Source: an uncultured Dysosmobacter sp.
GTDB taxonomy: Bacteria; Bacillota; Clostridia; Oscillospirales; Oscillospiraceae
Assembly: GCA_934563745.1 (NCBI GenBank)
Contig: CAKTHE010000033.1
Coordinates: forward strand, 1 to 14,267
Reading direction: 5' to 3'
Length of the DNA: 14,267 bases
Numbering within the stretch: the stretch's first letter is position 1; every line of letters starts with the position of its first letter. The notes under the pieces were generated by a model, which had not been told where the DNA came from, did no database searches, and saw nothing but the letters and a program-made list of their open reading frames with translations. The translations under genes and the position numbers were made by a program. This document shows, one piece after another, positions 123 to 14,267 of the stretch.

Positions 123-128
123 TGTAGT

Positions 129-235: not shown

Positions 236-264
236 TTGTATTTTTAAGGCAGATGCGGTATACT
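236..264 (+). promoter_or_regulatory. Sigma-A promoter of the murD operon
   Basis: TTGTAT (236-241), a 17-base spacer and TATACT (259-264) lie upstream of murD. A strong ribosome binding site AGGAGAGG (291-298) follows before the TTG start. The 158-235 stretch between this and the rnpB promoter shows nothing else I can identify. Confidence 0.75.
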
Positions 265-304
265 TTATTAAGTTTAGCCAATCGTTTGTAAGGAGAGGAT
301 TCTC

Positions 305-1684
305 TTGGAATTTGAGGAGTATCTGCAGTCTCTGCAGAAGAAAACTGTTGCCGTGATCGGGATCGGTGTCAGCAACCAGCCCTTGATCGAGCTGTTGGTG
401 CGGCATGGGATCCGCGTCACAGCCTGCGACCGGAAGGAGCGGAGCGCCCTGGGCGATTGGGCGGACCGCCTGGAGGGGATGGGGGCCCGGCTGCAGCTAG
501 GCCCGGACTACCTGCGGGATCTGACGGAGGACGTCATCTTCCGCACGCCCGGCATGCGTCCGGACCTGCCGGAGCTTGCCGCGGCCGTTGCCCGCGGTAG
601 CCGGCTTACCAGTGAGATGGAAGTCTTTTTTGAGGTGTGTCCCTGCCGCAAGATCGCCGTTACGGGCAGCGACGGCAAGACCACCACCACGACCATCATT
701 GCCGAGCTTTTGAAGCGTGCGGGAAAAACCGTGCATCTGGGCGGCAATATCGGGCATCCGCTGCTGGCGGAGACCGGATCCATGCGGCCGGAAGACCTTG
801 CGGTGCTGGAGCTGTCCTCGTTTCAGCTGATGACGATGCCCTACAGCCCACAGATCGCGGTCATGACCAATCTGGCACCCAATCATTTGGACGTACACAA
901 GGATTTTGCAGAGTATATTTCTGCAAAGGAAAATATCTTTACACATCAGTCTCCACAGGATATTGCCATATTTAACGCTGATAATGAGTGGACGCTGCGC
1001 GCCGCGCAGCACGCTCCCGGACGGGTTCGCCTTTTCTCCCGGCAGCATGCCGTTGAAGACGGTGTTTTCCTTCGCGGCGACGGGATCTTTGCAGCGTCAA
1101 ACGGAACGGAACGGGAGGTCATGAAGGCTTCCGATATTCGCCTGCCCGGCGCGCACAATATTGAAAACTATATGGCGGCCATCGCGGCGGTCGATGGGCT
1201 TGTTCCGGATGCGCAGATTCGGGATTTTGCCCGCAGCTTTAACGGCGTCGAGCACCGGATCGAGCTTTTCCGGACCCGCCGCGGGGTCCGCTGGTACAAC
1301 GATTCCATTGCCTCCAGCCCCAGCCGGACGATTGCGGGGCTGCGTTCCTTCCGGGAAAAGGTGATTTTGATTGCCGGCGGCAAGGACAAGGGGATCAGCT
1401 ATGCCCCGCTGGGGCCGGTGGTCAACGATCACGTCAAGGAGCTGATCCTGTGCGGAGCGACCTCCGGCGTGATTCGTGATGCCGTCCGGCAGGCGGACAA
1501 CTATCAGGGGCTTCCCATAACGGAGGTTTCGGATTATCAGCAGGCCGTGGCTCTTGCAGATGCCAAGGCCTGGCCCGGCGATGTGGTCATTCTCTCTCCG
1601 GCCAGCACCTCTTTTGATCGCTTTGCCAACTTTATGGAACGCGGCCGGACCTTTAAAGCGATCGTCAACGCGCTTCCGGACTAA
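305..1684 (+). CDS. murD: UDP-N-acetylmuramoyl-L-alanine--D-glutamate ligase MurD
   Basis: Cytoplasmic peptidoglycan enzyme that adds D-glutamate to UDP-MurNAc-L-Ala using ATP. The 459 residues fit the family (about 440-460). An N-terminal Rossmann-like UDP-binding domain starts with VAVIGIGVSNQP (16-27). The central ATPase domain has the P-loop GSDGKTT (121-127), ELSSFQL (169-175) and NHLDVH (193-198). The Mur-ligase HNIEN motif is at 284-288. The C-terminal domain has GVEHRIE (314-320), the MurD-type NDS-A--P motif (332-339) and GGKDKG (358-363). The start is a TTG at 305, chosen because AGGAGAGG ends 6 bases upstream and the usual N-terminal length is kept. It has its own promoter and heads a group with yunB and ligA rather than lying in the classical division and cell wall (dcw) cluster, although genes left of rnpB cannot be seen. 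Confidence 0.96.
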   Translation: MEFEEYLQSLQKKTVAVIGIGVSNQPLIELLVRHGIRVTACDRKERSALGDWADRLEGMGARLQLGPDYLRDLTEDVIFRTPGMRPDLPELAAAVARGSRLTSEMEVFFEVCPCRKIAVTGSDGKTTTTTIIAELLKRAGKTVHLGGNIGHPLLAETGSMRPEDLAVLELSSFQLMTMPYSPQIAVMTNLAPNHLDVHKDFAEYISAKENIFTHQSPQDIAIFNADNEWTLRAAQHAPGRVRLFSRQHAVEDGVFLRGDGIFAASNGTEREVMKASDIRLPGAHNIENYMAAIAAVDGLVPDAQIRDFARSFNGVEHRIELFRTRRGVRWYNDSIASSPSRTIAGLRSFREKVILIAGGKDKGISYAPLGPVVNDHVKELILCGATSGVIRDAVRQADNYQGLPITEVSDYQQAVALADAKAWPGDVVILSPASTSFDRFANFMERGRTFKAIVNALPD

Positions 1685-1755
1685 TACGCCGGAGCTCCAT
1701 CCATTCAATAGGGGCAAGCTCCGCCTGCATACAATGGCAGGAGAGGAGGTGCCCT

Positions 1756-2463
1756 ATGAGGCGGCAAAGCTTTTTTTATTATCGGCGGCACATCTCCCGC
1801 CGCGTATTTTTTAAAGCAGCCGGCGCAGTTCTGGGCTGTTTGCTGCTGTGGGCCGCGCTGCATGCCATCGTGCAGCTGCGCCCGCTTTTGGAGCAGCTGG
1901 CCACGACGCGGGTCTCCAATGCCGTAAACCGGATCGTAACGGAGGCCGTCGATGAAGCTGTGAAAAGCGGAGAGATCCGTTACGATCAGCTGATTCGTTT
2001 TGAGAAGGATCAGGAAGGGAAGATCACCGCCATCAGCAGCGACTTTGCTGCTTTTAACCGCCTGCAGTCGGAAATTCTGGACCGGGTCCTGTCCCGGGTC
2101 GACGAAATCCCGGCCAAAGAGCTTGCAATCCCCCTCGGAAACCTGACCGGGTCCGCGCTGCTGGCCGGCCGCGGCCCCAGGATCCGGGTCCGCATGGAGT
2201 CGGTAGGGTCTTCATCGGCTTACTTTGAAAACGAATTTACATCGGCCGGCATTAATCAGACGCGCCACCAGATCATTCTGCATGTGGATGTATATGTGGG
2301 GATCCTGCTGCCCGGATTTACAACGGCAACAAAGGTCTCCCATGCGGTCACGGTGGCGGAAACGGTGATCGTCGGCTCGGTTCCGGACACCTATACCTAC
2401 TTTGCATCCGAACCGGACACTTACGAGGAAAACGCCAAGGATTATCTCCTCAACCACACTTGA
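1756..2463 (+). CDS. yunB: Sporulation protein YunB family
   Basis: The 235-residue protein has a basic N-terminus (MRRQSFFYYRRHISRR), one hydrophobic membrane segment at about 18-39, and an extracytoplasmic domain. The segment VSNAVNRIVTEAVDEAV, the later GSALLAGRGPRIRVR, and the C-terminal HQIILHVDVYVGILLPGF--ATKVSHAVTVAETVIVG block are the hallmarks by which I recognise YunB. In Bacillus this protein is made in the mother cell under sigma-E and is needed for efficient sporulation, but its biochemical role is unknown. The start at 1756 follows a strong GAGGAGGTG (1742-1750). The gene lies 71 bases after murD with no terminator between, and 18 bases before ligA, so cotranscription is likely. 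I did not find a convincing separate sporulation promoter. Confidence 0.9.
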   Translation: MRRQSFFYYRRHISRRVFFKAAGAVLGCLLLWAALHAIVQLRPLLEQLATTRVSNAVNRIVTEAVDEAVKSGEIRYDQLIRFEKDQEGKITAISSDFAAFNRLQSEILDRVLSRVDEIPAKELAIPLGNLTGSALLAGRGPRIRVRMESVGSSSAYFENEFTSAGINQTRHQIILHVDVYVGILLPGFTTATKVSHAVTVAETVIVGSVPDTYTYFASEPDTYEENAKDYLLNHT

Positions 2464-2481
2464 AGGAAGGATTTTTCAGAT

Positions 2482-4470
2482 ATGGATTATCGGGAAGAGA
2501 TCAAAAAGCTGCGGGAGATCCTCAACGAAAACGGATACCGCTATTATGTTCTGGACGCTCCTACCATGTCCGATTATGAATACGATCAGCTTAACCGCCG
2601 TCTGGAGGAGCTGGAGGCCGCGCACCCGGAGGAGATCACGCCGGATTCCCCGACCCAGCGGGTCGGCGGAAAAATTTTGGACGGATTTGAGCCATACACG
2701 CACCCGGTTCCGCTGGAGAGCCTGCAGGATGTGTTTGCGCCGGAAGAGGTCAGCGATTTTTGTCAGCGCATGGAATCCGCCCTGGGTCATAAAGCAGCCT
2801 ACTCTTTGGAGCCCAAGGTCGACGGTCTCTCCGTAGCGCTGGAATACCGGGACGGTGTTTTTGTCCGGGGGGCAACGCGCGGGGACGGGCACATCGGGGA
2901 AGATGTAACGGAAAACCTGCGTACGATCCGCTCGATTCCCATGACCTTGCCGGAAAAGCTTCCGCACCTGATCGTGCGGGGCGAGGTCTATATGGCCCGC
3001 AGCGTATTTGAAGAGATCAACGCCGCCCGGGAGATCCAGGGAAAGCCTCTGCTGGCCAATCCCCGGAATGCCGCGGCCGGTTCTCTGCGGCAGTTGGATC
3101 CGAAAATCGCCGCTCAGCGGCGGCTGGACATCCAGATATTCAACTTGCAATTGGCGGAGGGACGCAGCTTCTCCACGCATGCGGAGACGCTGGACTATCT
3201 TGCCGGGCAGCATTTTCGGGTGATCCCGCATAAAACACTGGACACGACCGAGGACTGCCTGAATGAGATCGTGGCCATCAATGAGCGGCGCATGCAGTAT
3301 CCCTTTGACATGGACGGCGCCGTCATCAAAATCAATCTCCTTTCTGACCGGGAACGGCTGGGCAGCACGGCCAAATGCCCCAAATGGGCGATCGCCTATA
3401 AATACCCGCCGGAGAAAAAGCCCTCCCGTGTGCTGGACATTGTGATCCAGGTCGGCCGCACCGGCGTTTTAACACCCCGCGCCGTGCTGGAGCCTGTGCA
3501 TCTGGCCGGGACGACGGTACAAAGCGCCACGCTGCACAATCAGGACTATATTCAAGAAAAGGACATTCGGATCGGCGACACCGTCATGGTGCAAAAGGCA
3601 GGGGAGATCATTCCGGAGATTTTGTCTGTAGATCTTTCCAAGCGTCCGGAGCACACGCAGCCCTACGTTTTTCCGACCGTGTGTCCCGTCTGCGGGGCGG
3701 CCGTTTCCCGGGATGCGGACGGTGCCGCGATCCGCTGCACAGGCGCCGAGTGTCCGGCCCAGCTGCTGCGGAACATCACGCACTTTGCAAGCCGGGATGC
3801 CATGGACATCGACGGTCTTGGCCCGGCAGTTATTCAGCAGCTGATCGAACGCAAGCTCATCTCCAATGCGGCAGATCTTTATTATCTCCGGCCGGAACAG
3901 CTTCAAGAGCTGGAGCACATGGGTAAAAAATCGGCCGACAACGCTGTGCGTGCCATTGAGGCATCCAAGAAAAACGACCTTTCCAAGCTCATCTTCGGGC
4001 TTGGGATCCGCCAGGTCGGCGCGAAGGCCGCCAAGGTCCTGGCCGTGCATTTCAGGACCCTGGATGCGCTGGCTGGGGCCAGTGCAGAGGAGCTGACCGA
4101 AATTCCGGACGTAGGCGCCGTCACGGCCGATTCGATCGTGGCGTGGATGGCGGCCCCCCAATCCCGGGATTTGATCGAACGTCTGCGTGCGGCCGGCGTA
4201 CAGATGGAGTGCACGGAAGCCGCAAAAGATGACCGCCTTTCCGGCATGACATTTGTACTGACCGGAACGCTGAGCCGGCTGGACCGCAAGGCAGCGGAAG
4301 CCATGATTGAAGCACGTGGGGGAAAGGCTTCGTCCTCTGTCTCCAAACGAACCACCTATTTGGTCGCAGGGGAGGCGGCTGGCTCCAAGCTCAAAAAGGC
4401 GCAGGAGCTGCAGATTCCGGTCCTGACCGAGGAAGAATTTATTGCCATGCTTGAAGATTCTGATATGTAA
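2482..4470 (+). CDS. ligA: NAD-dependent DNA ligase LigA
   Basis: Seals nicks with 3'-OH and 5'-phosphate ends during replication and repair, using NAD+ as adenylate donor. The length of 662 residues is typical. The order of domains is complete. The Ia domain comes first, with YYVLDAP-(M)SDYEYD at 21-35. The adenylation domain carries the nucleophile Lys112 in KVDGLS (112-117). RGEVYM (167-172), NPRNAAAGSLRQLD (193-206) and DGAVIK (278-283) follow. The OB fold comes next, then a zinc site with Cys401, Cys404, Cys419 and Cys424. Helix-hairpin-helix repeats lie at about 440-570, and a C-terminal BRCT domain from about 585 (GMTFVLTGTLSRL). The ATG at 2482 is preceded by GAAGGAAGG. Transcription ends at the hairpin 18 bases after the stop codon. 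No key residue is missing. Confidence 0.98.
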   Translation: MDYREEIKKLREILNENGYRYYVLDAPTMSDYEYDQLNRRLEELEAAHPEEITPDSPTQRVGGKILDGFEPYTHPVPLESLQDVFAPEEVSDFCQRMESALGHKAAYSLEPKVDGLSVALEYRDGVFVRGATRGDGHIGEDVTENLRTIRSIPMTLPEKLPHLIVRGEVYMARSVFEEINAAREIQGKPLLANPRNAAAGSLRQLDPKIAAQRRLDIQIFNLQLAEGRSFSTHAETLDYLAGQHFRVIPHKTLDTTEDCLNEIVAINERRMQYPFDMDGAVIKINLLSDRERLGSTAKCPKWAIAYKYPPEKKPSRVLDIVIQVGRTGVLTPRAVLEPVHLAGTTVQSATLHNQDYIQEKDIRIGDTVMVQKAGEIIPEILSVDLSKRPEHTQPYVFPTVCPVCGAAVSRDADGAAIRCTGAECPAQLLRNITHFASRDAMDIDGLGPAVIQQLIERKLISNAADLYYLRPEQLQELEHMGKKSADNAVRAIEASKKNDLSKLIFGLGIRQVGAKAAKVLAVHFRTLDALAGASAEELTEIPDVGAVTADSIVAWMAAPQSRDLIERLRAAGVQMECTEAAKDDRLSGMTFVLTGTLSRLDRKAAEAMIEARGGKASSSVSKRTTYLVAGEAAGSKLKKAQELQIPVLTEEEFIAMLEDSDM

Positions 4471-4487
4471 AACAAAAAGACTATACA

Positions 4488-4523
4488 AAAAAGAGCGCTG
4501 CTTTGTCAGGCAGCGCTCTTTTT
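4488..4523. terminator. Bidirectional intrinsic terminator between ligA and the cotJC-like gene
   Basis: A perfect inverted repeat: AAAAAGAGCGCTGC (4488-4501), an 8-base loop, and GCAGCGCTCTTTTT (4510-4523). The A-run on one side and T-run on the other make it work in both directions. It closes ligA on the plus strand and the convergent cotJC-like gene on the minus strand. Confidence 0.95.
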
Positions 4524-4538
4524 CTGTATTCGGGGTCT

Positions 4539-5054
4539 TTACGTTTGATCGAACCCTGGGTTCAGGTAATAGACGTTCTTCTCGTCAAGCCGATCCTTTG
4601 CCAGCCGCAGTCCTTCGCCGAAGCGCTGGAAATGGACGATTTCTCTGGCGCGGAGGAAGCGAATGGCATCGCTTACATCCGGGTCATCCGACAGCCGGAG
4701 GATATTGTCATAGGTAACGCGCGCCTTTTGCTCTGCTGCAAGATCCTCCGTCAGGTCCGCAATGGTGTCGCCGGTCACCTGCATGCTTCCGGCGGACCAG
4801 GGGAATCCGGACGCGGCGGTGGGATAGACCCCGGTCGTATGATCAATGAAATACGCATCAAAGCCGGCTTCTTTGATTTGCTTCTCTGTCAGATTACGGG
4901 TCAGCTGGTGCACGATCGTCCCGATCATCTCCAGATGCCCCAGCTCCTCTGTGCCGACCGTGGAGGCAAAAAGGACCACCCTGGCACTTGAAGATAATTG
5001 CGGCATTGCCGGAAAGCTTTCCGTACAGGGAAGGTATCGAAAGGGAATTTCCAT
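4539..5054 (-). pseudogene. cotJC: CotJC-like spore coat / manganese catalase family gene, N-terminally truncated
   Basis: The last ~140 residues of this 171-residue reading frame are clearly CotJC-like (manganese catalase fold). They contain GTEELGHLEMIGTIVHQL, FIDHTTGVYP, DLTEDLAAEQKARVTYDNIL, REIVHFQRFGEGL and a C-terminal NPGFDQT. From memory of the family, proteins are about 190 residues and start with a conserved segment ending QYGG-(D)GE--A-LRYL. Here that segment is absent: only RYL (residues 7-9) and MP (17-18) resemble it, and a poorly matching stretch precedes the GTEE motif. The segment lost carries a metal-ligand glutamate in the family. No ribosome binding site precedes the ATG at 5054, and no start for the missing part is visible upstream in any frame. 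It also lacks cotJA and cotJB beside it. I read it as a decayed gene, but a short functional variant or a sequencing error is possible. Confidence 0.7.
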
Positions 5055-5101
5055 TTTGCGCGGTTGGCCGCGACGGATTTATATATCGGATCGTGTCATG
5101 A

Positions 5102-5130
5102 TTGACTTTCTTTTCCATTTTATGTATAAT
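5102..5130 (+). promoter_or_regulatory. Sigma-A promoter of cas3
   Basis: TTGACT (5102-5107), 17 bases, TATAAT (5125-5130). Nearly consensus, so a strong promoter. The start would be near 5137, giving a leader of about 84 bases before cas3. Confidence 0.88.
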
Positions 5131-5167
5131 ATAGACAATATCCGGGGCTGTACTTTGGCCCAAGCAG

Positions 5168-5206
5168 TCAGCTCTGTGATCGTACAGAGCTGATTTTTGC
5201 TTTTTT
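5168..5206 (+). terminator. Intrinsic-terminator-like hairpin inside the cas3 leader (putative attenuator)
   Basis: The stem TCAGCTCTGT (5168-5177) / ACAGAGCTGA (5184-5193) is 10 bp with no mismatch and a 6-base loop. TTTTTGCTTTTTT (5194-5206) follows directly. It lies between the cas3 promoter and the cas3 ribosome binding site, and the T-run points toward cas3. A 6-base alternative pairing is possible between CTGTAC (5148-5153) and GTACAG (5182-5187); it would break the terminator stem. I recognise no known riboswitch here. Confidence 0.75.
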
Positions 5207-5220
5207 AGGGAGGTGTTGAA

Positions 5221-7374
5221 TTGGAGTATTACGCCCACATTTCAGATGACGGCCGGCGCCAGACGGTGGCGGAGCATCTGGAGGGAACGGCAGCGCTGTG
5301 CCGCAGCTTTGCAAAGGCCTTCGGTGCCGAAGAATACGGCGAATGGGTGGGTCTGATCCACGACCTCGGAAAATGCACAGAGGGGTTTCAAAAGCGTCTG
5401 CTTGAAAACGGCCCCATCGTGGATCATGCCACGGCAGGAGCGCTTTTCTGCTTTCGGAACGCTCCGCTGGCGGCGCTGTGCATTGCGGGACATCACGGCG
5501 GAGTGCAGGACTTTGGAAACTGGAAGCTGGACAGAGCAGGCGATGCCACGTTCTGCGGGCGCCTAAAGGGTGGCCTGGATGCGCACTATCTGGAGCGATG
5601 CGGGGAGAGCGGCGTCAAAATTCCCACGGCGCCGCTGCCGCCGCCGGTAAAAGACAACCTGCAGGCCTCTTTCTGGACACGGATGCTCTATTCTTGCCTG
5701 GTGGATGCCGATTTTCTGGATACCGAGGCATTCATGAACGGCGACCGCGGCCGGGGCGGTTATATGGACATGCAGACCCTGCTGGCGCGGTTGGAAGCCT
5801 ATATCGCGCCGTGGCAAAATCCAAAAACAGAACTGAACCGCCTGCGCTGTCAGATCCTGAATGCCTGTTTGGAAAGCGGCAGCAAAGCAAAAGGACTTTA
5901 CACGCTGACGGTCCCCACCGGCGGCGGGAAAACCGTGGCGTCTCTGGCCTTTGCCCTGCGCCATGCTGTGACCCACGGGATGCAGCGGGTGGTGTACGTC
6001 ATCCCCTATACCTCCATCATTGAGCAGAACGCTCAGGTGTTCCGGGATATTCTGGGGGCTTCTAACGTGCTGGAGCACCATTCAGGTGTACAGTTCGACC
6101 TTTCCGACGGCGCGCCGCCGGAGGAGGTGCGCCGGGCACTGGCTGCGGAGAATTGGGACATGCCGGTGGTGGTCACCACAGCGGTGCAGCTTTTTGAATC
6201 CCTGTATGCCAACCGCTCTTCCAAATGCCGTAAGCTTCACAATCTCGCCAACAGCGTTATCATTTTTGATGAAGCCCAAATGCTGCCCCTGCCGCACCTG
6301 CGGCCCTGCGTGGCGGCAATGGCTTCTCTGGCAGAGCAGTTCCGGTCCACCGTGGTGCTGTGCACCGCCACCCAGCCGTCTCTGGACGACTTACTGCACG
6401 CATATGCGCCCGATTGTCCGGTGACGGAGCTGTGTCCCCGGACGGAAGCGCTCTGCAGCCGTTTCCGCAGGGTGTCCTTCCGGCAGACCGGAACGCTGAC
6501 GGACGCGGCGCTGGCCGCGCAGCTGGGTGCGCACAAGCAGGTCCTTTGCATCGTCAACAGCCGCAAGGCTGCGCAAAGCCTTTTTGCGCTTCTGCCCCGG
6601 GAGGGCAGCTATCACTTGTCCACCCTGATGGTCCCCGCCCAGCGGCAGACACTTTTAGCGGAGATCCGAACACGTCTGAAAAGCGGTCTGCCCTGCCGGG
6701 TGGTATCCACGTCCCTGATCGAGGCGGGCGTGGACGTGGACTTTCCGGCGGTCTATCGGGAATTGGCGGGGCTGGATTCCGTTCTGCAGGCGGCGGGCCG
6801 CTGCAACCGGGAGGGGAGGCGCTCATCAGAGGAGAGCATTGTAACGGTCTTTGAACGGACGGAGCTGCCGCCGATGCTGTTCCGCACGGCCATCGGCGCA
6901 GCCCGGGAAGCTCTGTCCGGAGACCGGGACCCAGGCGCGCCGGAGACCATGGACCGCTATTTTCGCGCCCTTCGGGACCTGACCGGCCATGCCCTGGATA
7001 AGCAGGGGGTCGTGGATGCCTTTGAAAAGGGGATCGCCGGCTGCGGCCTGCCCTTCCGCACCGTGGCGGAACAGTTTCATCTCATCGACCGGAATACCCA
7101 TACCGTCTATGTACCCTATGGGGATGGGCAGGATCTGCTGGAACAGCTTCAAGTCCAGGGCGGCACCAAGGCGCTTTACCGGAAGCTGGGACGCTATGCC
7201 GTTTCCGTGTATGACCAGCACTTCCAGGCTCTGTATGCCGCCGGGGCCCTGCTGACAGCCCGGGAGATCCCGGCCCTGGACCCGGACAGTGCCATTTTGA
7301 GCGACCTGACGCTCTACAGCGAAACCATGGGCCTTTCCCTGGAACCTGAGACCGGGAAGGCGGAGTTTATTTAA
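5221..7374 (+). CDS. cas3: CRISPR-associated nuclease/helicase Cas3, type I-C
   Basis: Effector of type I CRISPR interference: recruited by Cascade at a full R-loop, it nicks and then unwinds and degrades the target DNA. The 717 residues hold an N-terminal HD nuclease domain followed by a superfamily 2 helicase. HD residues visible are His19, His47-Asp48 (IHDLGK), His69 and His91-His92 (GHHGG). Helicase motifs are Walker A VPTGGGKT (231-238), DEAQ (350-353), TAT (382-384), motif V STSLIEAGVDVD (496-507) and motif VI QAAGRCNREGR (523-533). All active-site motifs look intact. The start is the TTG at 5221, 6 bases after GGAGGT (5209-5214). The gene is transcribed alone from its own promoter through a leader hairpin. 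The rest of the cas genes begin 293 bases later from another promoter. Confidence 0.97.
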   Translation: MEYYAHISDDGRRQTVAEHLEGTAALCRSFAKAFGAEEYGEWVGLIHDLGKCTEGFQKRLLENGPIVDHATAGALFCFRNAPLAALCIAGHHGGVQDFGNWKLDRAGDATFCGRLKGGLDAHYLERCGESGVKIPTAPLPPPVKDNLQASFWTRMLYSCLVDADFLDTEAFMNGDRGRGGYMDMQTLLARLEAYIAPWQNPKTELNRLRCQILNACLESGSKAKGLYTLTVPTGGGKTVASLAFALRHAVTHGMQRVVYVIPYTSIIEQNAQVFRDILGASNVLEHHSGVQFDLSDGAPPEEVRRALAAENWDMPVVVTTAVQLFESLYANRSSKCRKLHNLANSVIIFDEAQMLPLPHLRPCVAAMASLAEQFRSTVVLCTATQPSLDDLLHAYAPDCPVTELCPRTEALCSRFRRVSFRQTGTLTDAALAAQLGAHKQVLCIVNSRKAAQSLFALLPREGSYHLSTLMVPAQRQTLLAEIRTRLKSGLPCRVVSTSLIEAGVDVDFPAVYRELAGLDSVLQAAGRCNREGRRSSEESIVTVFERTELPPMLFRTAIGAAREALSGDRDPGAPETMDRYFRALRDLTGHALDKQGVVDAFEKGIAGCGLPFRTVAEQFHLIDRNTHTVYVPYGDGQDLLEQLQVQGGTKALYRKLGRYAVSVYDQHFQALYAAGALLTAREIPALDPDSAILSDLTLYSETMGLSLEPETGKAEFI

Positions 7375-7417
7375 CGAAGAGTCCTGTTTATGGGACAGGG
7401 CCGCATGTATGCTTGTT

Positions 7418-7454
7418 GAAAACGGCAGAAGGACGGAAAATCCGTCCTTCTGCC
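7418..7454 (-). terminator. Terminator of the crRNA-like RNA
   Basis: The arms GGCAGAAGGACGGA and TCCGTCCTTCTGCC (7424-7437 and 7441-7454 on the plus strand) form a perfect 14-bp stem with a 3-base loop. On the minus strand it is followed by GTTTTC. On the plus strand it is followed by TGAGAATAC, without a T-run, so it is oriented for the minus-strand RNA. It may also slow transcripts leaving cas3. In the proposed RNA it takes the place of the 3' repeat hairpin of a normal crRNA. Confidence 0.75.
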
Positions 7455-7479
7455 TGAGAATACAACTATTTCTCATTAT

Positions 7480-7504
7480 GTTTCAATCCACACTGATTCC
7501 AGTG
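7480..7504 (-). repeat. Degenerate CRISPR repeat (pseudo-repeat)
   Basis: On the minus strand: CACTG (7504-7500), loop GAAT, CAGTG (7495-7491), then TGGATTGAAAC (7490-7480). The array repeat is CGCACCCC, loop GTAA, GGGGTGCG, then TGGATTGAAAT. The stem sequence is entirely different and shorter (5 against 8 bp) but is still a perfect stem with a 4-base loop. The following 11-base tag matches at 10 of 11 positions. Change with kept pairing argues for selection on a repeat-like RNA fold recognised by Cas5c. Confidence 0.88.
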
Positions 7505-7512
7505 ACGAAGGC

Positions 7513-7541
7513 AATATATCATGGAACCTTATAATTGTCAA
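7513..7541 (-). promoter_or_regulatory. Promoter of the crRNA-like RNA
   Basis: On the minus strand TTGACA (7536-7541), 17 bases, TATATT (7513-7518). The predicted start near 7506 places the RNA 5' end immediately before the pseudo-repeat hairpin. Confidence 0.85.
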
Positions 7542-7582
7542 ACCTCAGAAAATAAATAGCTCAATCATGTATTTTAGTTATT

Positions 7583-7604
7583 TATAACTTTTTCTTATTA
7601 TGAA
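7583..7604 (-). promoter_or_regulatory. Predicted operator: Cascade target site guided by the crRNA-like RNA, with TTC PAM
   Basis: On the minus strand the site reads TTC (PAM, 7604-7602) then ATAATAAGAAAAAGTTATA (7601-7583). Against the guide's ATAATGAGAAATAGTTGTA it matches at positions 1-5, 7-11, 13-16 and 18-19, with mismatches at 6, 12 and 17. Pairing stops after position 19. The site ends 1 base upstream of the -35 box of the cas5c promoter, so bound Cascade would block RNA polymerase. It leaves the guide's own promoter (7513-7541) free. Confidence 0.82.
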
Positions 7605-7605
7605 C

Positions 7606-7634
7606 TTGACATAGAGACGGACGAAGTATATGAT
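7606..7634 (+). promoter_or_regulatory. Sigma-A promoter of the cas5c-cas2 operon
   Basis: TTGACA (7606-7611), 17 bases, TATGAT (7629-7634). The start would be near 7641, giving a short leader with AAAGGAG (7654-7660) before the cas5c ATG. An AT-rich tract upstream could serve as an UP element and contains the predicted guide target. Confidence 0.88.
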
Positions 7635-7667
7635 AGAGGCAGATAAATCAGAGAAAGGAGTGATCCG

Positions 7668-8330
7668 ATGGCGATACAAGTGGAAGTATGGGGCGAATAT
7701 GCATGTTTCACGCGGCCGGAAATGAAAACCGAACGTGTAAGCTATGATGTAATGACCCCCTCGGCAGCACGAGGCCTGCTGGAAAGCATTTTCTGGCATC
7801 CCGGTCTTCGCTATGTGATCGACCGCATCCATGTGTGCAGCCCCATCCGCTTCACCAATATCCGCCGCAATGAAGTGAAGGACACCATCAGCGCCCGCAA
7901 GGTGAAAACAGTGATGGAAAAGGGAACGGGCGAGCTGTACCTGGCTACGCCGGAGAGCATCCAGCAGCGGGCTGCCATGGTGCTGCGGGACGTGCACTAC
8001 GTGATCGACGCCCACTTTGACATGACGGATCGGGCCGCCCCCGGCGACAACCCAGGCAAATTTCAGGACATCATCAAGCGGCGGCTGGAACGGGGACAGT
8101 GCTACAGCATGCCTTATTTCGGAACCCGGGAATTTCCGGCCCATTTTCGCCGCTGCATGGAGCTGCCGCCCTGCCCGGAGGAGTTGAAGGGCACCCGGGA
8201 CCTGGGGTGGATGCTGTGGGACATGGATTACAGTGACCCGGAGAACATCACGCCAAAGTTTTTCCGGGCCAGTCTGGCGGATGGCGTGATGACCGTGCCG
8301 ACATCGGAGAGTGGGGAGGTGAGAGGATGA
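7668..8330 (+). CDS. cas5c: Cas5c (Cas5d/Csd5), crRNA-processing endonuclease of type I-C
   Basis: In type I-C systems, which lack Cas6, Cas5 cuts pre-crRNA at the 3' base of the repeat hairpin and then stays on the 5' tag as part of Cascade. The 220-residue length fits. The N-terminus VEVWGEYACFTRPEMKTERVSYDVMTPSAARGLLE (about residues 5-39, here in the form VEVWGEYACFTRP then SYDVMTPSAARG) and IFWHP---Y-IDRIHV-(S)PIRF-(N)IRRNEV are typical of the family. I did not assign the catalytic residues. It is the first gene of its operon, with AAAGGAG 7 bases before the ATG. Its end overlaps cas8c by ATGA. The same enzyme would process both the array transcript and the proposed crRNA-like RNA, since both have a stem-loop followed by the same tag. 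Confidence 0.95.
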   Translation: MAIQVEVWGEYACFTRPEMKTERVSYDVMTPSAARGLLESIFWHPGLRYVIDRIHVCSPIRFTNIRRNEVKDTISARKVKTVMEKGTGELYLATPESIQQRAAMVLRDVHYVIDAHFDMTDRAAPGDNPGKFQDIIKRRLERGQCYSMPYFGTREFPAHFRRCMELPPCPEELKGTRDLGWMLWDMDYSDPENITPKFFRASLADGVMTVPTSESGEVRG

Positions 8331-10081
8331 TCCTGCAGGCACTGACCCGGTACTACGAGGACCTGCTGAGCCGGGGCGAGATCGATGCTCCCGGCTGGAC
8401 GCCAGTAAAAATCAGCTATGCGCTGTGCTTGGATGGGGAGGGACAGCTGACACAGGTCATTCCCACCATGGAGGAAGTGACCAAGGGCAAGAAAACCGTT
8501 TTGCAGCCTCAGGTGTTTCCTCTGCCGGCGGCGGTGAAGCGCGCTTCTAACATTGCATCCAACTTCCTTTGGGACAACTCCTCTTACCTTTTGGGCGTGG
8601 ACCGGAAGGGCAAGCCGGAGCGGAGCCGGGACTGCTTCGCGGCGGCTGCACAGAAGCATCATGCGGTGCTGGACGGGGTGGAGTCCCCTGCAGCCCGGGC
8701 CATTCTGGCCTTTTTCGATACCTGGCAGCCCAGCCAAGCGGCAGAGCACCCCGCTCTGGCCGGGCTGCTTGAGGACGTGACCGCCGGGGCGAACCTGCTG
8801 TTCCGGGTGGACGGCTGTTATCCACAAGAGGACGCCACCATCCGGGAGGCGTGGCAGTGCTACCGGACGAGCAGTGATCCGGACGCGGTGCGGATGCAGT
8901 GCCTGGTAACCGGCCGTGCGGATGAGATCGTGCCCACCCATCCGGCTATCAAGGGCGTGCGGGATGCCCAGTCCAGCGGTGCGGCGCTGGTTTCCTTCAA
9001 CGCCCCGGCCTTTTGCTCCTACGGCCGGGAGCAGAACTACAACGCCCCGGTGGGAAAATACGCCGCCTTCGCCTATACCGCCGCATTGAACCACCTGCTG
9101 GCAGACCGAAACCATGTGCAGCTCATCGGCGACACCACCGTGGTCTGCTGGGCGGAGGGGGCGGATCCTGCGTACCAGAGTTTTGCCATGACGGCCTGCT
9201 TCGGCGCGGAGTCCAGCCTGTCGGACGGCGACCTCCGGGCGGCCCTCAAACGATTGGCGGAAGGGAAGCCCTGTGACGATCTTGGCATCGACCCGAACCG
9301 TCCCTTTTACATCCTGGGCTTAGCCCCCAACGCGGCCCGGCTCTCCGTCCGTTTTTTCCTGCGGGACAGCTTCGGCGCCCTGATGAAGAACGTGAATGAT
9401 CACTATGAGCGACTGGAGATTGTGGGTGCTCGTTACAAGGTACTGTCTCTGTGGGCGCTGCTGCGGGAAACGGTAAACATGAACTCCCGCGACAAAACGC
9501 CATCGCCTGCAATGGCCGGTGCGACTGCCCGCGCTGTCTTCTCAGGCGGTCCATACCCTGCATCATTATTGGAAGCCGTAATGCTCCGCATTCGGGCAGA
9601 GCAGGACAACACCGAAAAAAGAACCTACAAGATTACAGCAGGTCGAATGGCAATTCTGAAGGCCTACTACCTCAAGAATCCACACAAAGACTGTCCAAAG
9701 GAGGTTTTAACCGTGAGCCTGAATGAAGCAAGCAACGATACCGCCTATACCCTGGGCCGCCTGTTCTCGGTTTATGAAGCCGTACAGCAGGCTGCCAATC
9801 CCGGTATCAACGCCACCATCAAAGATAAGTATTTCAACTCCGCGGCGGCCATGCCCGCCAGCATTTTCCCGGTGCTGAACAATCTTTGTCAGAAGCATCT
9901 GCGGAAGCTGGACACCAGAGGGCGGGTCTATTATGACAAGCAGATCATGGATCTGAAGGGACGGCTGGGAGAGAGTTACCCGCCCCGGATGACCCTGGCC
10001 CAGCAGGGCAGCTTTGACCTGGGCTATTATCACCAGACCCAGAAGCGGTATACGAAAAAGGAGGAAGAGAAAAATGTCTGA
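8327..10081 (+). CDS. cas8c: Cas8c (Csd1), large subunit of type I-C Cascade
   Basis: The large subunit reads the PAM and helps recruit Cas3. The 584 residues and the start MILQALTRYYEDLL are characteristic of Csd1. Other family features are WTPVKISYALCLDGEG, FLWDNSSYLLGVD, CLVTG--(D)EIVPTHPAIKGV, SFNAPAFCSYGREQNYNAPV and the C-terminal YYHQTQKRY block. The ATG overlaps the cas5c stop (ATGA) and follows GGGGAGGTGAGAGG. Its 3' end overlaps the cas7c start by 8 bases. A very strong internal ribosome binding site before an in-frame GTG at codon 463 marks a second product, Cas11c. Confidence 0.97.
   Translation: MILQALTRYYEDLLSRGEIDAPGWTPVKISYALCLDGEGQLTQVIPTMEEVTKGKKTVLQPQVFPLPAAVKRASNIASNFLWDNSSYLLGVDRKGKPERSRDCFAAAAQKHHAVLDGVESPAARAILAFFDTWQPSQAAEHPALAGLLEDVTAGANLLFRVDGCYPQEDATIREAWQCYRTSSDPDAVRMQCLVTGRADEIVPTHPAIKGVRDAQSSGAALVSFNAPAFCSYGREQNYNAPVGKYAAFAYTAALNHLLADRNHVQLIGDTTVVCWAEGADPAYQSFAMTACFGAESSLSDGDLRAALKRLAEGKPCDDLGIDPNRPFYILGLAPNAARLSVRFFLRDSFGALMKNVNDHYERLEIVGARYKVLSLWALLRETVNMNSRDKTPSPAMAGATARAVFSGGPYPASLLEAVMLRIRAEQDNTEKRTYKITAGRMAILKAYYLKNPHKDCPKEVLTVSLNEASNDTAYTLGRLFSVYEAVQQAANPGINATIKDKYFNSAAAMPASIFPVLNNLCQKHLRKLDTRGRVYYDKQIMDLKGRLGESYPPRMTLAQQGSFDLGYYHQTQKRYTKKEEEKNV
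9713..10081 (+). CDS. cas11c: Cas11c, small Cascade subunit from an internal start in cas8c
   Basis: Within cas8c, AAAGGAGGT (9697-9705) lies 7 bases before a GTG at 9713 that is in frame with cas8c (its codon 463). Translation from there gives 122 residues starting VSLNEASNDTAYTLGRLFSV and sharing the Cas8c C-terminus. It is known for type I-C that the C-terminal part of Cas8c is made separately this way as Cas11c, the small subunit that stabilises the R-loop in multiple copies. The length and position agree. The ribosome binding site is stronger than that of many real starts in the window, which a purely coding constraint would not explain. It would be missed by ordinary gene callers. Confidence 0.85.
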   Translation: MSLNEASNDTAYTLGRLFSVYEAVQQAANPGINATIKDKYFNSAAAMPASIFPVLNNLCQKHLRKLDTRGRVYYDKQIMDLKGRLGESYPPRMTLAQQGSFDLGYYHQTQKRYTKKEEEKNV

Positions 10082-10961
10082 GCCTATTCAGAACCGGTAT
10101 GAATTTGCGGTATTCTTCGATGTGGAGAACGGCAACCCCAACGGTGATCCCGACGCGGGCAATATGCCCCGGGTGGATCCGGAGACCGGCTACGGCCTGG
10201 TAACGGATGTGTGTCTCAAGCGCAAGATCCGCAACTACGTGGAGACGGCCAAGGAGGGGGAGCCCGGCTACCGTATTTACATTAAGGACGGCGTCCCCCT
10301 GAACACCAGCGACAAGGAGGCCTGCGCCTATGTGGGCGTGGATCCGGACAAGCTCAAGGAAGCCAAGAAAAAGGACGACCAGCTGGACCGGAAGCTCAGG
10401 GACTTCATGTGCTCCAATTTCTACGATATCCGCACCTTCGGCGCGGTGATGACGACCTTTACCAAGGGTGCGCTCAACTGCGGACAGGTCCGCGGCCCCG
10501 TACAGCTGGGCTTTGCCCGCAGCGTGGACCCCATTCTGCCCCAGGAGATCACCATTACCCGCGTGGCCATTACCACCGAGGCAGACGCGGAAAAGAAGAA
10601 CACGGAGATGGGCCGGAAATACATCGTTCCTTACGGCCTTTATCGTGCAGAGGGCTATGTTTCCGCCAATCTGGCGCGCAAGACCACCGGCTTCTCGGAG
10701 GAGGACCTGAACCTTTTGTGGACGGCGATCCTCAACATGTTTGAAAACGACCACTCCGCCGCCCGGGGCAAGATGGCCGTCCGGGAGCTGATCGTATTCA
10801 AGCACGACACAGAGCTTGGCTGTGCCCCGGCCCACAAGCTCTTCGATCTGGTGAAGGCCGCTCATAAGGAGGGCGTTGCGGTGCCCAGAAGCTATGAGGA
10901 CTATACCGTAACGGTGGAGGAGCGCCTGCCTGACGGTGTGACCTGCACGCGGATGGGGTGA
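10074..10961 (+). CDS. cas7c: Cas7c (Csd2), backbone subunit of type I-C Cascade
   Basis: Copies of Cas7 line the crRNA spacer and form the backbone of the complex. In Cascade each copy flips out every sixth base of the guide. The 295-residue protein starts MSEPIQNRYEFAVFFDVENGN and carries the Csd2 signature GNPNGDPDAGNMPR with the following DPETGYGLVTDVCLKRKIRNY. The start at 10074 is chosen over an in-frame ATG at 10014 because AAGGAGGAAGAG (10058-10069) sits just before it and the known N-terminus begins there. It overlaps the end of cas8c by 8 bases, and its TGA overlaps the GTG start of cas4. Confidence 0.97.
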   Translation: MSEPIQNRYEFAVFFDVENGNPNGDPDAGNMPRVDPETGYGLVTDVCLKRKIRNYVETAKEGEPGYRIYIKDGVPLNTSDKEACAYVGVDPDKLKEAKKKDDQLDRKLRDFMCSNFYDIRTFGAVMTTFTKGALNCGQVRGPVQLGFARSVDPILPQEITITRVAITTEADAEKKNTEMGRKYIVPYGLYRAEGYVSANLARKTTGFSEEDLNLLWTAILNMFENDHSAARGKMAVRELIVFKHDTELGCAPAHKLFDLVKAAHKEGVAVPRSYEDYTVTVEERLPDGVTCTRMG

Positions 10962-11620
10962 TCGATTCCGAGGAGGACTTCCTTCCGCTCTCCGGCCTGC
11001 AGCATTTTAAATTCTGCCGCCGGCAGTGGGCTCTGATCCAAATTGAGAACCTATGGGCCGAGAATTTCCGCACAACGGATGGGGCCATTCTTCACGAAAA
11101 TGCCCACAACGGCGATTTCAGCGAAAGCAGGGGAGACCGCCTGATCACACGGGACATGCGCATCTTTTCCCGGACCCTGGGCGTTTCGGGGGCCTGCGAT
11201 GTATTGGAATTCCACCGGAGCGGGACCGGCATTCCCCTCAGGGACAAGGAGGGCTTGTGGCAGCCCTATCCGGTGGAGTACAAGCGGGGACGGCCTAAGG
11301 AGACCACGGCGGACGCCCTTCAGCTGTGCGGTCAGGCCATGTGCCTGGAGGAGATGCTCTGCTGTGAGATTCCGGGCGGAGCCCTGTATTACGGCGAGCT
11401 GCGCCGCCGCACAGAGGTGGCTTTCACGCCGGAGCTGCGGCAGGAAGTACGCACACTCCTCGCCGAAATGCACGACCTTTACAGTCGGGGCCGCACGCCG
11501 AAGGTAAGGCCCACCAAGGGCTGCAGTGCCTGCTCGCTGAAGGAGCTTTGTCTGCCGAAGCTGATGCGGGGAAAATCCGTTTCCGCGTATCTTGGCAGCG
11601 CGATGGAGGGGACCGGATGA
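10958..11620 (+). CDS. cas4: Cas4, adaptation exonuclease (PAM-dependent spacer processing)
   Basis: A RecB-family nuclease with an iron-sulfur cluster that works with Cas1-Cas2 to trim prespacers and select those with the right PAM. The cluster cysteines are visible: Cys20 (FKFCRRQW) and Cys189, Cys192 and Cys198 (GCSACSLKELC). RecB motifs include His47 (GAILHE), Asp81 (GACDVLEF), Glu107 and Lys109 (VEYKRGRPK), and a Q-rich helix (DALQLCGQAMCLEEM). The length is 220 residues. The start is GTG at 10958, overlapping the cas7c stop as GTGA. The stop overlaps the cas1 ATG. Translational coupling is therefore likely along the operon. Confidence 0.96.
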   Translation: MIDSEEDFLPLSGLQHFKFCRRQWALIQIENLWAENFRTTDGAILHENAHNGDFSESRGDRLITRDMRIFSRTLGVSGACDVLEFHRSGTGIPLRDKEGLWQPYPVEYKRGRPKETTADALQLCGQAMCLEEMLCCEIPGGALYYGELRRRTEVAFTPELRQEVRTLLAEMHDLYSRGRTPKVRPTKGCSACSLKELCLPKLMRGKSVSAYLGSAMEGTG

Positions 11621-12648
11621 GGCAGCTTTTAAATACGCTCTTTGTCACGTCCGAGGATCTTTACCTCTCGCTGGACGGCGAAAACATTGTGGCAAACCGC
11701 GGCGGGGAAATTGCCGCCCGCTACCCGCTGCACACATTGCAAAGCATCGTGTCCTTTTCCTACGCAGGCGCGTCACCTGCACTGATGGGGGCCTGTGCCC
11801 AGCGGGAGATCGGGCTGGCCTTCTGCTCACCGCGCGGGAAATTTCTCGCACGCGTGGCAGGACAGGCCCCAGGCAATGTCCTGCTGCGGCGGATGCAGTA
11901 CCGGATAGCGGACGATCCGTCCCAAAGCTGCCGCATTGCCCGAAACATGATCTTCGGAAAGGTTTACAATGCCCGTTGGAGTGTAGAGCGCACCCGGCGC
12001 GATCACGCGCTTCGGATTGATGCGGCGCAGTTTTCCGCTGTGTCCGGGCAGCTGCAGGGGCTGCTGCCTCAAATTGCGGAGGAAACATCGCTTGATGCAC
12101 TGCGCGGCCTTGAGGGCGCCGGGGCGACGGCTTACTTCCGTGTGCTGGATGACATGATTCTGCAGGGAAAAGAAACCTTTTATTTCCGGGAGCGCAGCCG
12201 TCGCCCGCCGCTGGATGCATTCAATGCACTGCTGTCCTTTGCATACAGTTTACTCGCACATGACTGCGCCTCGGCGCTCGAGAGCGTAGGGCTGGATGCC
12301 TATGTGGGCTATCTCCACCGGGATCGGCCGGGCCGGGAGTCGCTGGCTCTTGACTTAATGGAAGAACTGCGTCCCTGCTTTGCTGACCGCTTTGCGCTCA
12401 CGCTCGTCAACAACCGGGTGCTTAAAGCAGATGCTTTTGATTTCCGCGAAAGCGGCGCTGTGCTGCTGACGGATGCGGGACGCAGAACATTCCTGAAGAA
12501 ATGGCAGGAGCGAAAACGGGAGACCATCACCCATCCGTTTCTTGAAGAGAAAATGCCCTGGGGACTTGTGCCGTATGTACAGAGTCTGCTGCTTGCGCGG
12601 TATCTGCGCGGCGACCTGGAAGACTATCCGCCGTTTCTGTGGAAGTGA
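11617..12648 (+). CDS. cas1: Cas1, CRISPR integrase, type I-C
   Basis: Catalyses insertion of new spacers at the leader end of the array, as a complex with Cas2. The 343-residue protein has the family start MRQLLNTLFVTSEDLYLSLDG. The metal-binding residues are Glu166 (GLEGAGATAYF), His234 (GYLHRDRPGR) and Asp246 with Glu249/250 (LDLMEELRP). The signature RRPPLDAFNALLSFAYSLL (196-214) is present. The ATG at 11617, overlapping the cas4 stop as ATGA, is preferred to an in-frame ATG at 11548. The earlier one would lie deep inside cas4 and lengthen the family N-terminus by 23 residues. GGAGGGG precedes it. All catalytic residues are present, so adaptation should be active. Confidence 0.98.
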   Translation: MRQLLNTLFVTSEDLYLSLDGENIVANRGGEIAARYPLHTLQSIVSFSYAGASPALMGACAQREIGLAFCSPRGKFLARVAGQAPGNVLLRRMQYRIADDPSQSCRIARNMIFGKVYNARWSVERTRRDHALRIDAAQFSAVSGQLQGLLPQIAEETSLDALRGLEGAGATAYFRVLDDMILQGKETFYFRERSRRPPLDAFNALLSFAYSLLAHDCASALESVGLDAYVGYLHRDRPGRESLALDLMEELRPCFADRFALTLVNNRVLKADAFDFRESGAVLLTDAGRRTFLKKWQERKRETITHPFLEEKMPWGLVPYVQSLLLARYLRGDLEDYPPFLWK

Positions 12649-12655
12649 GGCGTTT

Positions 12656-12946
12656 ATGCTGGTTTTGATCACTTATGATGTGAACACCTGTGACGCTGCC
12701 GGCCGGGCCAGACTGCGCAAAATTGCAAAGCAGTGCGTCAACTACGGGCAGCGGGTACAAAACTCTGTGTTTGAGTGTCTGCTGGATACCGCGCAATGCC
12801 GCAGCCTGCAGAATAAGCTCTGCAAAATTATGGATCCGGAAAAGGACAGTCTGCGCTTTTACTGCCTCGGAAAGAAATACGAGAGCAAAATTGAACACTT
12901 TGGCTGCAGGCAAACCTACCTTCCGGAAGAACCGATGATTCTGTAG
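12656..12946 (+). CDS. cas2: Cas2, adaptation protein, type I-C
   Basis: The structural partner of Cas1 in spacer integration. The 96 residues start MLVLITYDVNTCDAAGRARL, with the conserved Asp8 at the end of the first beta strand. They continue with NYGQRVQNSVFECLLD, typical of I-C Cas2 proteins. The ATG at 12656 lies 7 bases after the cas1 stop, with GTGAGG just upstream. An in-frame ATG at 12542 would give a 38-residue extension inside cas1 and is not supported by the family. It is the last gene of the operon. I see no clear terminator after it before the CRISPR leader. Confidence 0.97.
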   Translation: MLVLITYDVNTCDAAGRARLRKIAKQCVNYGQRVQNSVFECLLDTAQCRSLQNKLCKIMDPEKDSLRFYCLGKKYESKIEHFGCRQTYLPEEPMIL

Positions 12947-13105
12947 TGCGAAGCGGGAGCATCCGGAAAAAGCGGGAACCGTTCGCACCAGTAATTTGCG
13001 TGATGAATTAAAAATCGGATACTCTGACAGGCGGTATACGATACAAAATATTCAAAATTTGTCTGTTATTGCAGAAATGCAGGAATGAATTTATGCATTT
13101 TTGCT
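12947..13105 (+). promoter_or_regulatory. CRISPR leader with a probable array promoter
   Basis: The 159-base AT-rich stretch between cas2 and the first repeat has no gene. A possible promoter is CTGACA (13024-13029), 17 bases, AATATT (13047-13052), which is only moderate. An inverted repeat AAATGCA (13075-13081) / TGCATTT (13094-13100) sits within 31 bases of the first repeat, where leader sequences guide integration. The leader position marks repeat 1 as the end where new spacers enter. Confidence 0.65.
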
Positions 13106-13472
13106 GTCGCACCCCGTAAGGGGTGCGTGGATTGAAATGACTGCCCAAAGTTTACAATCCGCGTATCAAATCGTCGCACCCCGTAAGGGGTGCGTGGATT
13201 GAAATGGGACAAAAAAGTAATACGTATCAAGGTAAACGGTCGCACCCCGTAAGGGGTGCGTGGATTGAAATAAAAATTTAAGCACTTTTTTTCCATCTGG
13301 CTTAGTCGCACCCCGTAAGGGGTGCGTGGATTGAAATCTACCTAACCGGCGCTTCGCTTGGTGTCAGTGGGCGTCGCACCCCGTAAGGGGTGCGTGGATT
13401 GAAATTTCAATTTCATTATTCGTCCTCCTTATCTGCACAGTCGCACCCCGTAAGGGGTGCGTGGATTGAAAT

Positions 13473-13506
13473 TAAGTATGGCGTTGTTTCTTCGCTTGGC
13501 GAAGGT
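13473..13506 (+). repeat. Spacer 6, near-duplicate of spacer 8
   Basis: This 34-base spacer and spacer 8 (13608-13643, 36 bases) begin at the same point (TAAGTATGG) and share 32 of 34 positions. They differ at position 10 (C against T) and 25 (T against C), and spacer 8 is 2 bases longer at its far end. In the open frame KYGVVSSLGEG both differences are synonymous. Confidence 0.95.
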
Positions 13507-13607
13507 GTCGCACCCCGTAAGGGGTGCGTGGATTGAAATTCAGGAAGCCGCTAAAAATCGTAATTGGCAAGAGAGTCGCACCCCGTAAGGGGTGCGTGGA
13601 TTGAAAT

Positions 13608-13643
13608 TAAGTATGGTGTTGTTTCTTCGCTCGGCGAAGGTCT
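13608..13643 (+). repeat. Spacer 8, near-duplicate of spacer 6
   Basis: See spacer 6. Because it is farther from the leader, it should be the older of the two; spacer 7, unrelated, was inserted between them. Two separate acquisitions from related phages fit better than array duplication, since the lengths and two bases differ. Confidence 0.95.
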
Positions 13644-14267
13644 GTCGCACCCCGTAAGGGGTGCGTGGATTGAAATAATCCACCGTCCATGCACCACCGG
13701 GGCCACGTCGGGTCGCACCCCGTAAGGGGTGCGTGGATTGAAATAACGCCAAGCATCAGGGCGACATCTCCGGGCTGGTCGCACCCCGTAAGGGGTGCGT
13801 GGATTGAAATTTACTTCGGCACCCAAAAGGTCTCGGAGGGCGGCAAGTCGCACCCCGTAAGGGGTGCGTGGATTGAAATCGCGGCCACATCTGAGGAGGT
13901 GAGCCATGGCCAAGTCGCACCCCGTAAGGGGTGCGTGGATTGAAATGACATTGCGCTCCACCAGGACGCGCCTCCGGTCGAGTCGCACCCCGTAAGGGGT
14001 GCGTGGATTGAAATAGGAGATCAATGAAGAACGTGATCAGCTGCTTGGTCGCACCCCGTAAGGGGTGCGTGGATTGAAATATTTTGGCGTACACGAAGGT
14101 CCGGGTGGGCCTGCGTCGCACCCCGTAAGGGGTGCGTGGATTGAAATGTTCCGAACCGCCTGGTTTGGCAGCACTGGAAAGTCGCACCCCGTAAGGGGTG
14201 CGTGGATTGAAATTCAAGCACCTTTTTGCGGATAAAGGGCGTCATGGCCGTCGCACCCCGTAAGGGG

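Follow-up and report, generated by a model that had tools for sequence, protein, structure and literature searches.

Why would a CRISPR (clustered regularly interspaced short palindromic repeats) locus keep, between two of its own cas genes, a standalone repeat whose guide matches the promoter of those genes? The question is raised by a contig of an uncultured Dysosmobacter sp. (CAKTHE010000033.1, positions 1 to 14,267; the window, meaning the whole 14,267-nucleotide (nt) stretch that was analysed), in which the 293-nt gap between the type I-C genes cas3 and cas5c holds a small minus-strand gene. We find that the guide of this gene matches a site at the predicted cas5c promoter, and that the match is kept in 34 relatives, mostly with different letters. 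Very probably, as judged from these comparisons, Cascade loads the one-repeat guide RNA, binds the TTC-flanked site at the cas5c promoter without cutting it, and represses its own operon. This would amount to autorepression of the CreR type by a type I-C Cascade, in which the repression itself is what we infer.

The guide gene and its match at the cas5c promoter

The minus-strand unit is ordered as a predicted promoter, a degenerate type I-C repeat, a guide of about 25 nt and a terminator-like hairpin. Its elements, together with those of the matched site, are as follows.

7513 to 7541, minus strand: predicted guide-gene promoter, with -35 TTGACA at 7541-7536, a spacing of 17 base pairs (bp) and -10 TATATT at 7518-7513; 11 of 12 consensus letters
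7480 to 7506, minus strand: degenerate type I-C repeat GTCACTGGAATCAGTGTGGATTGAAAC, with a 5-bp stem and the repeat's 3' handle
7455 to 7479, minus strand: guide of about 25 nt, with its pairing core at positions 1-17 (7479-7463)
7419 to 7454, minus strand: terminator-like hairpin with a 14-bp stem, a 3-nt loop and a GTTTT tail, located where a second repeat would stand
7583 to 7601, minus strand: target site, matched at 16 of 19 positions
7602 to 7604, minus strand: protospacer-adjacent motif (PAM) TTC, read on the minus strand and abutting guide position 1
7606 to 7634, plus strand: predicted promoter of the cas5c operon, with TTGACA at 7606-7611, a 17-bp spacing and TATGAT at 7629-7634

A promoter scan of the gap returned three promoter-like sites against 0.9 expected from shuffles, and the guide gene is predicted to be transcribed from near 7506. 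The repeat contributes a repeat-like hairpin, GTCACTGGAATCAGTG, and then the handle TGGATTGAAAC, whose counterpart in the array is TGGATTGAAAT. The predicted 88-nt RNA folds at -37.2 kcal/mol (z -6.5 versus shuffles). Its guide runs for about 25 nt before the terminator-like stem, compared with 33-36 nt for the array spacers. The hairpin at 7419 to 7454 is not among the terminators listed by a strict terminator scan, and the window has no Rfam family match at the gathering threshold.

The guide ATAATGAGAAATAGTTGTA (7479-7461, minus strand) agrees with the target (7583-7601, minus strand) at 16 of 19 positions. The original prediction had placed the misses at positions 6, 12 and 17, and re-deriving the match from the window sequence gave the same result. 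It had also placed a TTC beside position 1 and the site next to the cas5c -35 element; the TTC is present at 7602-7604, and a single base (7605) separates it from TTGACA at 7606-7611. Relative to the predicted cas5c transcript start, the target lies at -57 to -38.

For scoring, we used guide positions 1-17 without 6 and 12, 15 positions in all. A 16-letter pattern with 6 and 12 free and one mismatch allowed occurs in the window at just the guide and the target, with a mean of 0.00 over 200 shuffles. Furthermore, the real guide scores 14/15 in the gap of the window, a value that no guide among 3000 shuffles attained, whether or not TTC was required; the best shuffle scored 13.

Guide and target across related loci

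Cas5c loci were gathered from one contig search (32 loci) and from whole-genome searches (60 rows with loci and 60 further regions). One genome was common to both whole-genome searches, and G228, G121, G076, G448, the second G529 hit and all weaker hits were excluded. The resulting 152 sequences, the window included, gave 143 distinct loci after 9 duplicates were dropped. Going by record titles and search groups, nearly all of the sample belongs to the Bacillota, with 22 Actinomycetota loci added and Pseudomonadota outside it. A search in the phylum of the L026 genome gave genomes that were in the sample before, and no loci were taken from it. Measured from the cas3 end to cas5c in the 137 of 143 loci with cas3 found upstream, the gap was shorter than 120 nt in 89 and wider in 48, of which 45 were at most 570 nt. 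The 48 wide gaps and the 6 loci without a detected cas3 make up the 54 regions that were examined.

These gap lengths bear on one alternative, in which the RNA is the CreA of a toxin-antitoxin pair (CreTA/CrePA) and restrains a toxin gene instead of the cas genes. According to the excerpted text of PMC9458426, CreA too originates in ectopic repeats and directs Cascade through partial complementarity. The promoter beside the target, however, reads directly into cas5c at 7668 with no open reading frame (ORF) of at least 80 amino acids starting between them, and the wide gaps are mostly short. No toxin gene lies under the targeted promoter, although a very short toxic RNA could still be accommodated. 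We consider this alternative extremely unlikely.

Of the 54 regions, 24 contain the exact handle GGATTGAAA on the minus strand and one contains it on the plus strand, compared with 0.14 per strand expected from a mononucleotide shuffle. Choosing by the handle only (at most one mismatch, minus strand) selected 32 of the 54. For 31 of these 32, the gap contains a site that the guide matches at 11-15 of the 15 scored positions, and all 31 matched sites bear TTC (27) or TTT (4), a motif that played no part in site choice. The remaining locus, L061, has a handle, and its best gap match reached only 9/15. When guides were swapped between loci with TTC/TTT required, at least 13/15 was reached by 29 of 32 own pairs versus 7 of 992 swapped pairs, and all seven were between close kin; without the PAM requirement, the corresponding counts were 29 of 32 versus 11 of 992.

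Changes in the guide are largely mirrored in the target. Summed over 18 comparable pairs of related guides within guide clusters, the same target change accompanied 53 of 62 core differences, compared with none of 20 differences at positions 6 and 12. With a looser grouping included, the totals were 124 of 133 and 0 of 31. The pair of the window and L007 was skipped in this count, as their targets lie on different strands, and the window had no usable partner. The expectation that spacer and target would covary across relatives with the PAM kept was thus borne out.

A wider survey covered 643 standalone handles in the 143 loci; in loci with a known pair, a handle was reported only if it lay over 700 nt away from cas5c. 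New pairs scoring at least 13 beside TTC/TTT were found only in L028, L031, L040 and L050. An additional handle match in L015, also more than 700 nt from cas5c, was set aside because it looks like an array repeat. Within 1300 nt of cas5c, relaxed handle and PAM criteria yielded seven scattered matches at 13/15, none beside TTC or TTT; the low-complexity filter of this search passed over L101. Together, the window and its 34 relatives provide 35 pairs, 31 from the handle-only choice and 4 from the second search, with L061, L029 and L101 outside the counts. In L029, where the contig end truncates the guide, 11 of 12 positions match beside TTC. In L101, 15/15 positions match beside the PAM CTT, and the first 17 guide letters are all A or T. 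L101 is a distant relative, with a Cas5c of about 42% identity, and its site, 16 nt upstream of cas5c, retains the 5-1-5-1-5 pattern.

We then profiled the 35 pairs by position, requiring TTC/TTT at the site and leaving out each scored position in turn; positions 6, 12 and 18 onward were not used for choice. Matches were found in 34, 35, 35, 35 and 35 pairs at positions 1-5, in 33, 33, 34, 35 and 33 at positions 7-11, and in 33, 32, 31 and 30 at positions 13-16. Positions 6 and 12 match in 5 of 35 each, with about 7 of 35 expected by chance. Pairing fades from position 17 (21 of 35; position 18, 11 of 35), and positions 19-24 match in 4, 6, 11, 4, 10 and 10, where chance at the distal positions is 9-11. 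The resulting pattern is five paired, one free, five paired, one free, then four or five paired. It persists when each of the 21 guide clusters is represented by a single pair, with mismatches at 6 in 17 of 21 and at 12 in 16 of 21. The earlier view that positions 6 and 12 need not pair is upheld by this profile, and the proposed extent of pairing, up to position 19, holds in the window itself (16/19) and fails across the relatives, where the core stops at about 17 and positions 18 and 19 are at or below chance.

Two stronger readings of the profile were rejected. A selected mismatch at positions 6 and 12 is not called for by counts of 5 of 35 where about 7 would be expected (p 0.25 and 0.34), which we read as freedom instead of avoidance. 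Likewise, avoidance of pairing past 17 would account for the low counts at 19, 20 and 22 (4, 6 and 4 of 35 versus about 9), but positions 21, 23 and 24 are at chance.

On this sequence comparison, the positional profile is the footprint of Cascade. The two similar short sequences that share one intergenic gap might otherwise be taken as two operator copies for a DNA-binding repressor, their likeness to CRISPR being incidental. Such copies would not be expected to differ in their conserved flanks, a repeat handle on one and a PAM on the other. Neither would a conserved operator be expected to vary in its letters by lineage, as seen over the 21 clusters, and the 5-1-5-1 pattern is that of Cascade. 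We assign this explanation a vanishingly small probability.

In the 34 loci with a terminator-like stem, the guide preceding it has a median length of 25 nt; it is exactly 25 nt long in 11 of them and ranges from 8 to 35 nt. In the window (7479-7455) and in the lineage of L015, L016, L018, L021 and L054, the PAM-distal guide letters can fold onto the middle of the guide. As a general feature, a guide self-hairpin (about letters 7-13 against 19-25) was rejected, since only 7 of 35 loci reach p<0.05, with a combined p of 0.03; five of these seven belong to one lineage.

Target position and proposed mode of action

By the best-scoring predicted promoter of each locus, the start site has the target upstream of it in 18 of the 35 loci, in several of them, apart from the window, near -64 to -45. 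A further 14 targets lie at about -9 to +32, and the other 3 are elsewhere or ambiguous. Of the 35 guides, 29 are complementary to the plus strand and 6 have the sense of the mRNA. In L007, L028, L039, L042 and L044 the target is on the strand opposite the guide gene, and in L031 guide gene and target are both on the plus strand. Judging from sequence, the orientation of guide and target thus seems to have changed in the course of the family's history. At 10-30 nt upstream of cas5c in L022 and L025, the GAA that directly precedes the Shine-Dalgarno sequence AGGAG forms the target PAM when read from the opposite strand, so that the ribosome site and the predicted Cascade site abut.

The prevailing complementarity to the plus strand, along with the sites abutting the Shine-Dalgarno sequence in L022 and L025, would suit a plain antisense RNA acting independently of Cascade, by pairing with the leader of the cas5c mRNA to block its translation. 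Against this, 18 of the sites, that of the window included, are located upstream of the predicted transcript start, and 6 loci have a guide with the mRNA sense. RNA-RNA pairing also gives no reason for drift at positions 6 and 12, for TTC/TTT at position 1 or for a CRISPR handle, and the Cascade-type pairing profile therefore speaks against it. An antisense RNA is, in our view, very improbable.

We now return to repression by Cascade. In this model, Cas5c would cut the repeat of the guide RNA at the handle, and Cascade would assemble on handle and guide. PAM and seed would lead the complex to its own promoter, where bound Cascade would block RNA polymerase, just upstream of the -35 in the window and at the start site in other loci. 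Cas3 would not be licensed, since pairing ends at about 17. The block would presumably lift when true CRISPR RNAs (crRNAs) are abundant or when an anti-CRISPR occupies Cascade, as for CreR.

Published work on related systems is consistent with these steps. In type I-E Cascade every sixth base is flipped out, and in Escherichia coli a target mismatched at 19-32 binds the type I-E complex with no detectable interference or priming (PMC5904413). The natural I-C pairs end right where these type I-E data put binding without interference, in agreement with the earlier proposal that the pairing would be too short for efficient Cas3 cutting. For type I-C, the excerpts of PMC10865793 give TTC and TTT as PAMs and describe an engineered system in which Cascade without Cas3 represses genes from promoter sites. 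A broader proposition is that the pairs form a distinct class in type I-C systems of Clostridia and some other Bacillota, with one-repeat, terminator-capped self-regulating guides whose pairing with their own cas promoter is selected to exactly three Cascade segments (5, 5 and 4-5, with positions 6 and 12 free and a stop at 17). Binding would be maximal below the threshold for cutting or spacer acquisition, and a guide shorter by about 10 nt would form a shortened Cascade. We hold the case for and against this proposition to be evenly balanced.

Several observations weigh against autorepression by Cascade or limit its reach. The promoters are consensus matches only, in a gap whose shuffles already yield 0.9 such sites, and the best predicted promoters of several relatives are weak. 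In the upstream class, except for the window, L012 and L035, the promoter-facing edge of the site is about 3-23 bp above the -35, and occlusion there therefore depends on the reach of Cascade. The flipped-base and binding-without-cutting data come from type I-E, not I-C, and type I-E off-target sites were matched at position 6 above chance (PMC5904413), which is not so here. The loci are kin, so the 35 pairs are not independent and 21 guide clusters remain; the pairs compared for matched changes overlap and are not independent either. Moreover, handle, match and PAM all entered the search that yielded L028, L031, L040 and L050, and the matches in L017 (12/15) and L026 (11/15) are weak.

Other points concern loci without a pair. 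No scored pair was found in 19 of the 54 regions, two of which (L029 and L101) pair by eye. There was none in the 89 loci with a gap shorter than 120 nt, in a sample that shows the region upstream of cas3 mainly for the 32 contig-search loci; most whole-genome loci stop short, so a guide gene upstream of cas3 could be missed in them. The 22 Actinomycetota loci, with 59 handles, gave no pair with a TTC/TTT PAM, and one 15/15 match, in L185, has the PAM ATA. From the absence of pairs in the short-gap and Actinomycetota loci, we conclude that type I-C does not need the guide gene.

Finally, L001, whose Cas5c is the closest to that of the window (85%), holds a decayed guide-gene remnant with the handle GGGTCGAAAG. 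In the gap alignment the guide-gene promoter and the target are absent in one stretch, and the remnant guide matches at most 9/15 beside any TTC/TTT in the 14.7-kb locus. Its cas5c -35 is altered, by eye. As a single case, this loss fits a pair that is kept only together.

The same decayed copy, along with a repeat stem unlike that of the array repeat, could suggest that the unit in general is a functionless leftover of an old array with a self-matching spacer. A GT-anchored stem is also absent from 8 of the 35 repeats, which counts against our own reading; in the other 27, the window's included, it is kept with changing base pairs, which decay would not explain. Nor can decay hold a match through changing letters, as in the 53 mirrored core differences, or keep TTC/TTT at every one of the 31 matched sites, and the unit bears a near-consensus promoter-like site and a terminator-like hairpin. 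A mere leftover is accordingly judged highly unlikely, and autorepression by Cascade is retained as the preferred reading.

The surrounding locus and known systems

The window contains a complete type I-C locus, with cas3, cas5c, cas8c, cas7c, cas4, cas1, cas2 and an array.

5221 to 7374, plus strand: cas3, with HD nuclease and helicase domains both matched (TIGR01596, TIGR01587)
7668 to 8330, plus strand: cas5c (TIGR01876)
8327 to 10081, plus strand: cas8c (csd1; TIGR01863)
10014 to 10961, plus strand: cas7c (csd2; TIGR02589), ORF as listed
10958 to 11620, plus strand: cas4 (TIGR00372)
11548 to 12648, plus strand: cas1c (TIGR03640), ORF as listed, family match from residue 26
12542 to 12946, plus strand: cas2 (TIGR01573), ORF as listed, family match from residue 39
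13106 to 14267, plus strand: main CRISPR array, with 16 complete spacers of 33-36 nt counted, continuing past the window end

Because the TIGR02589 match begins at residue 28 of the listed ORF, the true start of cas7c is probably later. The array repeat is GTCGCACCCCGTAAGGGGTGCGTGGATTGAAAT. Spacers 6 (13473-13506) and 8 (13608-13643) differ at two positions over the 34 letters of spacer 6, as if one phage region had been sampled twice, from variants.

Standalone repeats near cas genes have been surveyed before. Shmakov et al. 2023 (NAR 51:8150) reportedly made a systematic computational survey that predicted standalone repeats, chiefly in type I, whose spacers are partially complementary to cas promoters; their elements are said to be often two-repeat mini-arrays. 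In type II, Cas9 is said to repress its own promoter via a natural single guide, the long form of the trans-activating crRNA (tracrRNA), which has no crRNA-like handle (Workman et al. 2021).

The closest known systems are the cas-regulating RNAs (CreR), credited to Liu et al. 2023 (Cell Host Microbe). In the excerpts of PMC13131331, PMC12737573 and PMC12948488, CreR is a CRISPR-like RNA with partial complementarity to a cas promoter, through which the effector represses itself, generally without a toxin gene. The block is relieved by crRNA abundance or anti-CRISPRs (excerpts of PMC12737573 and PMC12948488). The window shares with CreR a standalone CRISPR-like repeat (7506-7480) beside cas genes and outside the array, which begins at 13106, the PAM of the subtype beside the target (TTC), limited guide complementarity to the cas promoter region (16/19) and, across relatives, coevolution of guide and target (53/62 in the core, 0/20 at 6 and 12). 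The effector would likewise repress itself here. In contrast to CreR as these excerpts present it, there is a single repeat, a terminator-like hairpin replaces the second, the guide is about 25 nt long, and pairing is sharply periodic over 35 loci. Subtype I-C is outside the I-B, I-E and V-A subtypes in which the excerpted review names CreR (PMC13131331), which limits the precedent, not the mechanism. The literature matches listed include no paper on a type I-C CreR, a statement about those matches and not about print at large.

Two further systems use similar RNAs for other ends, as far as the excerpts of the respective papers go. CreA of CreTA is also an ectopic repeat RNA directing Cascade to a promoter; it represses a toxin, whereas the promoter on the target side here drives cas5c (PMC9458426). 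RNA anti-CRISPRs (Racr) are solitary repeat-like RNAs, and a type I-C example exists; they are borne by viruses or plasmids and disable Cas proteins, while the unit described here sits inside a cas locus and its guide fits the local cas promoter (PMC10651486).

The 35 natural pairs offer a comparative readout of what I-C Cascade needs for binding without cutting, in which positions 6 and 12 are free and pairing ends at about 17. Every locus is also a candidate autorepression switch and a test bed for anti-CRISPR triggering. As a whole, the proposed mechanism is CreR-like, and the features that appear new are the I-C subtype, the single-repeat build and a pairing rule that holds over 35 loci.
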